A stretch of 64,000 bases of DNA, from the NCBI RefSeq assembly GCF_014196845.1, contig NZ_JACIEM010000004.1, forward strand, positions 248,001-312,000, given 5' to 3'. The notes beneath the pieces were generated by a model. That model did not search any database, was not told the DNA's origin, and was given only the letters and a program-made list of their open reading frames with translations. The position numbers were made by a program, and so were the translations under genes. Shown piece by piece: positions 8,614-64,000 of the stretch. Source of the stretch: Aurantimonas endophytica (GTDB taxonomy: Bacteria > Pseudomonadota > Alphaproteobacteria > Rhizobiales > Rhizobiaceae). The first letter of the stretch is position 1. Every line of letters begins with the position of its first letter.

Positions 8614-8776
8614 CACCCCCCTCTGGGCTGCCGCCCATCTCCCCCACAAGGGGGGAGATCGATGCGGCGAGGGGGGCACTTCCTGGAGAAGCGCCGTTAG
8701 GCCGAACGTCGAGAGCGGGGCTTTGCAGTCTCGATCTCCCCCCTTGTGGGGGAGATGCCGGCAGGCAGAGGGGGGT
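8614..8776. repeat. Palindromic repeat doublet, phn copy A
   Basis: Two opposed units form a 163-base inverted pair. The left unit (8614-8660) runs from CACCCCCCTCTG to AAGGGGGGAGATC. The right unit (8733-8776) runs from GATCTCCCCCCTTGTG to CAGAGGGGGGT. Each unit also holds its own hairpin, CTCCCCC facing GGGGGAG. The 72-base spacer resembles that of copy B (shared CTGGAGAAG and CGTCGAG). The same unit recurs five times inside cobN. The overall shape resembles a non-autonomous REPIN or MITE. Confidence 0.9.
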
Positions 8777-8829
8777 ACAAAGCAGCCGCCGCCACTGGCA
8801 GAATGATCTCCGCCGCAGGAGGCCGATCC

Positions 8830-9240
8830 GTGTCGCATGCCGATATTTCGCGCAGGCACCGCGCCATTGCCCGGACGATGCGCAAGGCGATGACCGAGGC
8901 CGAGTTGAAGTTCTGGAACGCGGTGCGGGCGCACCGGCTGATGGGCCTCGGCTTCCGCCGGCAGGTGCCGATCGCGGGCAGCATCGTCGACTTCGCCTGC
9001 CCGACGCACCGGCTGATCGTCGAGATCGACGGGACGCGGCACGGCGACTACGCAACGCTGGCGCGGGATACTGCCCGGACGGCGCGACTGGAAGCGGACG
9101 GTTGGACCGTCGTGCGGTTCTGGAACCACGAGGTCATGACCGACATCGATGGCGTCTGCGCGCATATCCTCGCGGTGATCGAGGCGCGGGAGCCGGGCTG
9201 TTTCAGCGATGGCGGTCGCGAAGTCGGCGATGTCGGATAG
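8830..9240 (+). CDS. DUF559 (VSR-like) endonuclease-domain protein
   Basis: The 136-residue product has the DUF559 pattern of the PD-(D/E)XK nuclease superfamily: AELKFWNAVRAHRLMG, FRRQVPIAGSIVDFAC, LIVEIDGTRH, then a D-R pair and VVRFWNHEVM. The likely catalytic residues are the Asp in VDF and the Glu in VEIDG. GTG at 8830 is chosen because AGGAGG lies 8 bases before it. An ATG at 8746 would begin inside the repeat palindrome. The gene faces against the phn operon, and repeat doublets lie 53 bases before and 7 bases after it. No cognate methylase is nearby. It may be a passenger or partner of the repeats. Confidence 0.88.
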   Translation: MSHADISRRHRAIARTMRKAMTEAELKFWNAVRAHRLMGLGFRRQVPIAGSIVDFACPTHRLIVEIDGTRHGDYATLARDTARTARLEADGWTVVRFWNHEVMTDIDGVCAHILAVIEAREPGCFSDGGREVGDVG

Positions 9241-9247
9241 GACAGCG

Positions 9248-9412
9248 ACCCCCCTCTGTCCTGCCGGACATCTCCCCCACAAGGGGGGAGATCGGAGCGG
9301 CGACGGTCTCGCCTTCTGGAGAAGAGTCGTGCGGCCGATCGTCGAGCGCCTTGCCGGGCAATTCCGTCGATCTCCCCCCTTGTGGGGGAGATGCCGGCAG
9401 GCAGAGGGGGGT
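9248..9412. repeat. Palindromic repeat doublet, phn copy B
   Basis: This is the second inverted pair of the same family, with its left unit at 9248-9293 and its right unit at 9369-9412. It starts 7 bases after the DUF559 stop and ends 49 bases before the phnJ stop. The terminal arms ACCCCCCTCTGTCCTGCCGG and CCGGCAGGCAGAGGGGGGT are near-complements, so the whole 165 bases could fold as one long stem with two side hairpins. No clear target-site duplication is visible. Confidence 0.9.
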
Positions 9413-62647: not shown

Positions 62648-64000
62648 TTGCATCTTCTCCTCGCCCAGCAGGGCACGATCGACGACGGCGGCGAGGCCAT
62701 CGATCTCGGCCAGTCGCCGGCGGACATCGTCGTCCTGTCGGCGGCCGACACCGAGATCGCCGGCCTCGCCTTCGCCGCAAGGCGCCTCGGCGCGGCGGCA
62801 CCGTCGCTGCGCCTCGCCAATCTCCTGCGGCTGAAGCACCCGATGTCGGTCGACGTCTATGTCGAGCGCACGCTCCGCCACGCCAAGCTGGTGGTCGTGC
62901 GCCTGCTCGGCGGCGCCGCCTACTGGCCCTACGGCCTCGACGCGCTGCTCGCCAACGCGCAAGCCTCGGGCGGCCAGCTCGTCGTGCTGCCCGGCGACGA
63001 CAAGCCCGATCCGGGCCTCGACCGCTATTCGACTGTGTCGCCCGAAATCCGCGACCGGCTCTGGGCCTATCTGGTCGAAGGCGGCGCCGCCAACGCCGAC
63101 AATTTCCTCCTGTCGCTGCGCTGGCTGCTGGACGGCGGCGACGCGCCGGCCGAAGCGCAGCCGCTGCTAAAGGCGGGCGTGCTGGAACTGGGGGGCGCTT
63201 CCGGCGTCGGCGATTGGCCGATCTCCCCCCTTGTGGGGGAGGTGTCCGGCAGGACAGAGGGGGGCAGGTCGCCCGCCGACCTCAGTTCAACGAAGGAAGT
63301 GATCGAGCGCACCGAGGGTGACACGCCAGCCAAACCGGCCAGCGAAGCCCACCCCCCTCTGCCTGCCGGCTTTGGGGACGAGCCACGCGTCTCGTCCCGT
63401 CCTGCGGACCCCGCCACAAGGGGGGAGATCGAAGGTGGCGAGGGCAGCGGGCTTGCCTCGACCGCCGAGCCTGAAGTCGAAGACGCCGAGGCCAGCGATG
63501 AGCCGATCTCCCCCCTTGTGGGGGAGATGTCCGGCAGGACAGAGGGGGGTACGCCTCCCGCCAGCCTACATCCGTCCGAGCAAGCGCTCGAAAGCGCCGG
63601 CTCTGGCAACCTGACCGCCCCAACCAAAGTGGCATCCGAAGCCCACCCCCCTCTGCCTGCCGGCATCTCCCCCACAAGGGGGGAGATCAATGGTGGCCCA
63701 GGCGGCGCGCTTGCCTCAACTGCCGAGCTTGAAGTCGAAGTCGCGGAGGCCAGCGACAAGCTGATCTCCCCCCTTGTGGGGGAGATGTCCGGCAGGACAG
63801 AGGGGGGTGAGTCCCCCAAAACCGCAGATAAACCCGAAAAACCCCTCGCCGCCATCGTCTGCTACCGGGCGCTGGCGCAGAGCGGGCAGACGGAGCCGGT
63901 GGAAGCGCTGGCGCGGGCGCTGGCGGAGCGCGGGCTGGGCGTGCTGCCGGTGTTCATCTCCAGCCTCAAGGACCCGGTTTCCGTCGAGACGGTGCGGGCG
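62648..64000 (+). CDS. cobN: Cobaltochelatase large subunit CobN, N-terminal part with repeat insertion
   Basis: TTG at 62648 gives the family start MHLLLAQQGTIDDGGEAIDLGQ and the frame is open to the window end (451 codons seen). Residues 1-178 match CobN (LRLANLLRLKHPMSVDVYVERTL, LGGAAYWPYGLDALL). From about residue 179 to 398 the normal short linker is replaced by about 200 residues coded by repeat DNA (ISPLVGEMSGRTEGG and PPLPAGISPTRGEI units). The true sequence resumes at AAIVCYRALAQSGQTEPVEAL and VFISSLKDPVSVETV. CobN inserts cobalt into hydrogenobyrinic acid diamide with CobST. Confidence 0.93.
   Translation, partial: MHLLLAQQGTIDDGGEAIDLGQSPADIVVLSAADTEIAGLAFAARRLGAAAPSLRLANLLRLKHPMSVDVYVERTLRHAKLVVVRLLGGAAYWPYGLDALLANAQASGGQLVVLPGDDKPDPGLDRYSTVSPEIRDRLWAYLVEGGAANADNFLLSLRWLLDGGDAPAEAQPLLKAGVLELGGASGVGDWPISPLVGEVSGRTEGGRSPADLSSTKEVIERTEGDTPAKPASEAHPPLPAGFGDEPRVSSRPADPATRGEIEGGEGSGLASTAEPEVEDAEASDEPISPLVGEMSGRTEGGTPPASLHPSEQALESAGSGNLTAPTKVASEAHPPLPAGISPTRGEINGGPGGALASTAELEVEVAEASDKLISPLVGEMSGRTEGGESPKTADKPEKPLAAIVCYRALAQSGQTEPVEALARALAERGLGVLPVFISSLKDPVSVETVRA
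63220..63264 (+). repeat. Palindromic repeat unit in cobN (forward, unpaired)
   Basis: GATCTCCCCCCTTGTGGGGG begins the unit and AGAGGGGGGC ends it. It is read in frame as ISPLVGEVSGRTEGG. No opposed partner precedes it, unlike the other four units. Confidence 0.9.
63350..63550. repeat. Palindromic repeat doublet in cobN, with nested insertion
   Basis: A reverse unit (63350-63430) and a forward unit (63505-63550) form an inverted pair. In the reverse unit, about 40 bases containing a second inverted repeat (GGACGAG facing CTCGTCC) replace the hairpin arm ATCTCCC. It stays in frame, reading GFGDEPRVSSRPADPATRGE. Confidence 0.88.
63644..63808. repeat. Palindromic repeat doublet in cobN, intact
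   Basis: A reverse unit (63644-63688) and a forward unit (63763-63808) form a 165-base pair of the same size as those in the phn locus. The 74-base spacer is a close copy of the 63431-63504 spacer, so the doublet was probably duplicated in tandem. It is read as PPLPAGISPTRGEI ... ISPLVGEMSGRTEGG. Confidence 0.92.

Follow-up and report, generated by a model that had tools for sequence, protein, structure and literature searches.

Rickettsia palindromic elements (RPEs) have analogues in Wolbachia, and NCBIfam includes an RPE model. The available portions of two earlier papers describe RPEs as small palindromic repeats that lie between genes and also in frame inside conserved protein genes (PMC2229807, PMC3733652). 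According to the accessible text of the second paper, GTAG/CGTC-tagged REPs are short palindromes, often arranged as inverted dimers, some of which sit inside genes and even twice in a single gene, as in uvrA genes of O. terrae (PMC3733652). The RIME, Sm and A/B/C palindromes of Sinorhizobium and other rhizobia are repeats of unknown function, described as intergenic in the available part of a further paper (PMC2573895).

Here, we analyzed a 64,000-nucleotide stretch of the Aurantimonas endophytica genome (the window), which ends within cobN (62648–64000, forward strand, TTG start), the gene for the cobaltochelatase subunit CobN. The N-terminal part of CobN encoded in the window matches PF02514 (31.1 bits, cut-off 24.5), PRK12321 (2.3e-64) and TIGR02257 (3.1e-58); the last two matches fall under their whole-protein cut-offs because the window contains a quarter of cobN. 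When the rest of the contig is read, cobN is a single open frame from 62648 to window-equivalent position 67516, with 1622 residues and no internal stop, and the whole frame can be aligned with other CobN proteins. Two arrays of one palindrome of ~44 nt lie inside it: five cores at a first linker (site 1) and four more past the window end (site 2; residues 939–1117, L009 5515–5884), so the repeated region is larger than an earlier, sequence-only reading of the window had described. That cobN is a pseudogene, a possibility which that reading had raised, was considered and ruled out for A. endophytica: all 1622 codons are open, and in comparison with sister species the core of the gene changes mainly at third codon positions. 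We infer that this extended CobN is produced and works with its insert in place.

The site 1 insert, as delimited by the family alignment, comprises 211 residues (186–396; 63203–63835, forward strand) between the conserved flanks ...LKAGVLELGGAS and EKPLAAIVCYRAL, and is predicted to be disordered. Its repeated core, CTCCCCCCTTGTGGGGGAG, occurs in the order +,-,+,-,+ at 63223, 63409, 63508, 63667 and 63766, the last copy reaching 63784; in frame, it reads ISPLVGEMSGRTEGG forward and PPLPAGISPTRGEI in reverse, and PPSVLPDISPTRGEI instead in many rhizobia. Repeat and core matches place the forward arms at 63221–63264 (reading ISPLVGEVSGRTEGG), 63506–63549 and 63764–63807 (ISPLVGEMSGRTEGG), and the second reverse arm at 63646–63688 (PPLPAGISPTRGEI). 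The first reverse arm (63352–63431, by core match), which starts PPLPAG, is split by a stretch of ~42 nt that is itself palindromic (63371–63412, no strand assigned, FGDEPRVSSRPADP in frame) and whose 22-nt centre is also present in L012 of the same genome and in the CobN of relative G002 (L053). The sequence-only reading was accurate in its five alternating copies at 63220–63808, in an in-frame insertion free of stops, which it put at about 200 residues, and in an ISPLVGEM-type peptide one way and another peptide the other way. We also noted that the smaller palindrome, GGACGAGCCACGCGTCTCGTCC, is nested within the larger element at multiple loci (window 63371–63412, L012 7348–7369, L053 3507–3528).

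The array is not a chance pattern, since the 5.04-Mb genome contains 60 matches (30 per strand) to the core at up to 3 mismatches but none to a reversed-pattern control, and the RNA of 63220–63808 has a fold z of -10.7 that was equalled by 0 of 100 shuffles. No known RNA family was recognised: an Rfam search at E up to 1 returned seven matches, six of them to miRNA families and all below the gathering score, which probably reflect hairpin composition.

Compared with RPEs as the available text describes them, the element is alike in lying in frame in unrelated conserved genes (cobN, glyS, pbpC, ribD, bchB and a di-haem oxidoreductase), and the likeness to RPEs in another bacterial group, first proposed from the window, is supported as an analogy. 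Unlike RPEs, it has another, GC-rich sequence and reuses two sites of one gene across an order; no RPE model was among the NCBIfam matches of the window at E up to 1. The element resembles intragenic REPs, as far as the accessible text covers them, in being a short palindrome that forms inverted pairs and has in-gene copies, even two in one gene, but GTAG and CGTC, the tags that define REPs in that text (PMC3733652), are both absent from the 44-nt consensus arm. The A. endophytica genome has no match to the RAYT-type Y1 transposase (PF01797), and of 14 further genomes that carry the element 2 have matches, which leaves a RAYT-driven REP unsupported and supplies no mobiliser for the element. 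RIME is found in the chvI-chvG two-component locus; in six genomes other than the original RIME strains, where we reached this locus by way of hprK, which lies next to chvG, it had no core at up to 5 mismatches. The cobN element could belong to the rhizobial RIME or A/B/C palindromes, which the available text describes as intergenic. The peptide strings ISPLVGEM, SPTRGE, PLVGEMSG and PSVLPDISP had no match in the literature searched, which mostly excluded subscription papers, and its titles and abstract starts contained no report of in-frame palindromes in rhizobia. The cobN case is a two-site hotspot within one enzyme across Rhizobiales.

Copies of the palindrome are dispersed beyond cobN. 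Our census of core positions in the A. endophytica genome covers 13 stretches, with some of the 60 cores falling outside them. Within these stretches, glyS (L018 4210–6582) has an in-frame palindrome pair between its two Pfam domains, uvrB has a degenerate core near its C-terminal end, and the remaining copies appear to be intergenic or upstream of starts. Two more inverted pairs in the window (8639–9390), next to an ABC-transporter gene, likewise appear intergenic. In several relatives, the glyS match breaks near query residues 312 and 560 and the frames are longer. Among the matches listed for 12 element-bearing genomes, in-frame copies were present in pbpC, ribD and bchB as well as in a di-haem oxidoreductase, where the copy occupies the N-terminal region; these hosts are a lower bound and, the query being a peptide in one frame, carry no information on frame use, and a supporting Pfam scan strengthened the case for them. 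Across the named cobN loci, core density was 0.449 per kb in cobN (130 in 289 kb) versus 0.075 per kb in the flanks (46 in 617 kb). As a control for spacing, flank pairs had a spacing of 1 mod 3 in 17 of 20 cases, these pairs being few and related.

We then surveyed CobN in relatives. A scan of named genomes supplied the best 80 of 573 confirmed CobN loci, ranging from Jiella/Aurantimonas to Rhizobium, Ensifer and Brucella. Of 101 loci in all, 97 were aligned, leaving aside L070 (distant), L091 and L141 (contig ends) and L107 (944 codons, 2 cores). At least one core was present in 55 of the 97 and none in 42; because 20 loci had been hand-picked, partly for long frames, the 77 named loci, unselected for inserts, are the better base for frequencies, and 46 of them carried cores. 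The two linkers held 173 of the 175 cores, the other two lying near the C terminus of one sequence; this exception apart, core-bearing CobN proteins of Aurantimonadaceae, Phyllobacteriaceae, Ahrensiaceae and Rhizobiaceae always used the same two linkers. The controls gave 4 matches in codon-shuffled genes and 8 raw matches for the reversed pattern, versus 176 for the real one. Four same-genus genomes (G001, G004, G005 and G007) have a CobN of 1257–1293 residues that lacks the core, with 18–54 residues at site 1 and 4–7 at site 2. G002 and G003 share the arrays in a shorter form (1494 and 1396 residues), and in G006, where the contig truncates the start of CobN (L057), there is one weak core, with linkers of 18 (site 1) and 55 (site 2) residues. 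The expectation from the window that close relatives would lack the insert was thus borne out for four of them, but the insertion is not strain-specific.

Linker lengths spanned 2–211 residues for site 1 and 0–179 for site 2; in the examples inspected, SLQRAIAAD.. and FDPLDC are 0–8 residues apart when site 2 is empty. Judged by sequence, the CobN in PDB entry 9uk9 has no insert at site 2. Both insertion sites are predicted to be disordered linkers. In the AlphaFold2 model of A. endophytica CobN, pLDDT is below 50 for nearly all of residues 184–379, in keeping with the permissive loop postulated earlier, and the AlphaFold model of R. laguerreae CobN, which matches solved CobN and ChlH, has pLDDT below 50 at residues 208–275 and 819–882. 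Site 1 of L052, L060 and L074 (Aurantimonas/Jiella relatives) contains a different in-frame repeat-like peptide, GLE.GS or similar followed by WI.AQGRDD.

To place these insertions on a phylogeny, we used a CobN tree of 93 distinct sequences, built with both sites excluded from the alignment and four identical rows dropped. A minimum of 25 changes in presence was needed for site 1 and of 18 for site 2. Both sites were filled in 31 of the 93, neither in 41, site 2 only in 15 and site 1 only in 6. The sites tend to fill together: among 19 independent pairs, 8.7 changed in the same direction versus 0.8 in the opposite direction (median p 0.02, range 0.001–0.18), and this joint filling could reflect more than tolerance. 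By eye, the site 1 and site 2 spacers of one protein are often alike (e.g. L079 and L119), a likeness that suggests copying between the two sites of one cobN.

A single ancient insertion at each site, inherited vertically with many losses and no later insertions, would account for the same positions being occupied across families. It would also fit the comparison of L009 with L053, whose site 1 inserts differ at 22, 19 and 21 first, second and third codon positions, against 26, 10 and 101 in the CobN core protein; divergence of the inserts is thus similar in extent to that of third positions in the core, which makes the inserts older than the split of these two lineages. We nevertheless regard a single origin per site as very unlikely: sister clades have different repeat families, frames and orders at the same sites, and the change counts, in which gain and loss are indistinguishable, do not speak for losses alone. 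Site 2 in the R. leguminosarum group, for instance, is either empty, filled by a PSVLPD-type pair or filled by another palindrome of the PTPPHKGEG type. Filled L127 shares its outer flanks with the empty L126 and L137. A MITE would combine terminal inverted repeats with a target-site duplication; the element has inverted arms, and in this one comparison no clear duplication was seen.

Eight of the 97 aligned genes (L123, L100, L137, L126, L096, L092, L088 and L120) carry at site 1 an in-frame stretch of 27–32 nt that matches the 3' end of tRNA-Met(cat) in reverse complement. In seven of the eight, the fragment lies at or within 1 base of the CCA end, and no match to this 3' end was found elsewhere in those cobN genes. 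The stretch looks like an attachment-site or tRNA-fragment footprint.

Next, we asked whether the frame is kept. Three parts of an insert-free CobN were placed by tblastn in all 101 loci: 96 were unbroken across the three parts, two were broken (L107 and L128) and three were without a part (L091, L141 and L147). The frame was unbroken in 53 of 55 filled and in 43 of 43 unfilled testable loci. The two frame changes, between the middle and C-terminal parts in L107 and between the N-terminal and middle parts in L128, are both in filled genes and may be sequencing errors or genes truly broken at the linker; L128 is included in the core counts, the tree and one species pair of the divergence comparison below. 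The arrays nearly always leave cobN open. In 83 inserts, stops numbered 0 in 6490 codons of the coding frame, a zero partly built in by extracting frames from stop to stop (the three-part tblastn placement is the independent test), and 67 and 179 in the other two sense frames, of 6407 codons each. By chance, then, the inserts would not be expected to stay open in every frame. With the arms removed, the counts were 0 of 4068 versus 50 of 3869 and 147 of 4000. The 44-nt consensus arm itself has no stop in any of its six frames, so it is mainly the spacers that must stay open.

Frame use was uneven. Of 87 forward cores, 84 were in the ISPLVGEM frame, 3 in the LPPCGG frame and 0 in the PPLWGRC frame; reverse cores were spread over the three frames (58, 19 and 11). 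With four duplicate rows removed, a single frame accounted for 80 of the 82 forward cores; for reverse cores the figure was 58 of 84. Selection for an open phase, as proposed from the window, holds in part: the need to stay open falls mainly on the spacers, the arm being stop-free in all six frames, yet a frame preference exists. The bias counts against a wholly neutral peptide, unless it stems from shared ancestry or from harm done by frames with Cys or Trp. Part of it is accounted for by shared descent, and the rest may reflect harm from Cys- or Trp-bearing peptides. It also favors a functional insert, namely a long flexible linker whose ISPLVGEM-type motifs tune CobN assembly or regulation, as does the recurrence of the motif across genera. 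This would be hard to reconcile with the use of all three frames by reverse arms, with the wide range of linker lengths at both sites and with the pattern of divergence described below, and we consider a functional peptide highly improbable.

Divergence was compared in 13 species pairs, hand-chosen among related filled rows and partly non-independent. Arms differed at 76 of 2125 positions where both rows are arm and at 114 of 2348 where either row is, and spacers at 884 of 3460, i.e. 0.036–0.049 versus 0.255, a five- to seven-fold lower divergence in the arms; masking arms by likeness to the consensus favors conserved arms, and the looser mask still gives 0.049. Comparisons of related species had insert changes spread about evenly over the three codon positions and changes in the CobN core mostly at third positions. 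Spacers had no codon-position bias (249/1001, 227/1001 and 278/1052 differences), and the peptide from the rest of the insert looks free to drift. Arms changed least at third positions (35/713, 25/711 and 14/670), the opposite of what selection on the peptide would produce, which indicates conservation of the nucleic acid and not of the peptide. Similar contrasts exist outside coding sequence: two close non-coding pairs upstream of cobN had 1/88 and 3/88 differences in arms versus 30/331 and 38/248 in the rest, and four wider pairs a weaker, about two-fold contrast (7–13 in 88–103 versus 51–62 in 271–298), with the non-arm part of this stretch taking in the end of the preceding gene. Likeness among the arms thus appears to be maintained at the DNA or RNA level, whether through selection or through homogenisation.

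Such conservation could mean that the arms work in the cobN message, where hairpins at two domain boundaries would slow ribosomes or signal processing or stability and would be positively selected. The strong RNA fold, the nucleotide-level conservation of arms inside the frame, the joint filling of the two sites and the higher core density in cobN than in its flanks are all consistent with this. Against it, 42 of the 97 CobN lack cores, close non-coding pairs also have low arm divergence, and other repeats and a tRNA fragment occupy the same linkers, which tolerance fits better; we regard a role in the message as unlikely. That the paired palindromes are kept at the two boundaries for an RNA or DNA role, for example in timing translation between CobN domains with the peptide as a by-product, likewise seems doubtful to us. 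If true, it would make the element a regulatory repeat within a coding region, one that appears and disappears among Rhizobiales.

We consider it probable that a dispersed, mobile palindromic pair persists in cobN at two tolerant linkers, with the arms kept as DNA or RNA and the peptide hardly held. A Rhizobiales element, in its usual form two ~44-nt arms in inverted orientation that flank a variable spacer, would enter many places in the genome, through a putative mobility of the pair. In cobN, viability would filter its insertions, and those at two interdomain linkers, after about residues 185 and 735 of insert-free CobN, might persist because the linkers are disordered and tolerate extra length. 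Since the arms are stop-free in every frame, we propose that an insertion survives if its spacer is open and its overall length is divisible by three, and that arrays may later grow by duplication. Purifying selection would keep cobN open and CobN active while hardly holding the inserted peptide, and a DNA or RNA process, either constraint or homogenisation with other copies, would keep the arms alike in genes and in intergenic DNA.

One reading frame contains three modes of evolution, with a core that changes as protein-coding sequence does, spacers that look neutral and arms conserved at the nucleic-acid level. In-frame insertion of palindromes, for which Rickettsia is the best-known case, is extended to an order in which one enzyme can be traced through dozens of filled and empty sister genes. 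This makes it testable how such elements get into genes, whether the peptide they add is of any consequence and how likeness among the arms is maintained.
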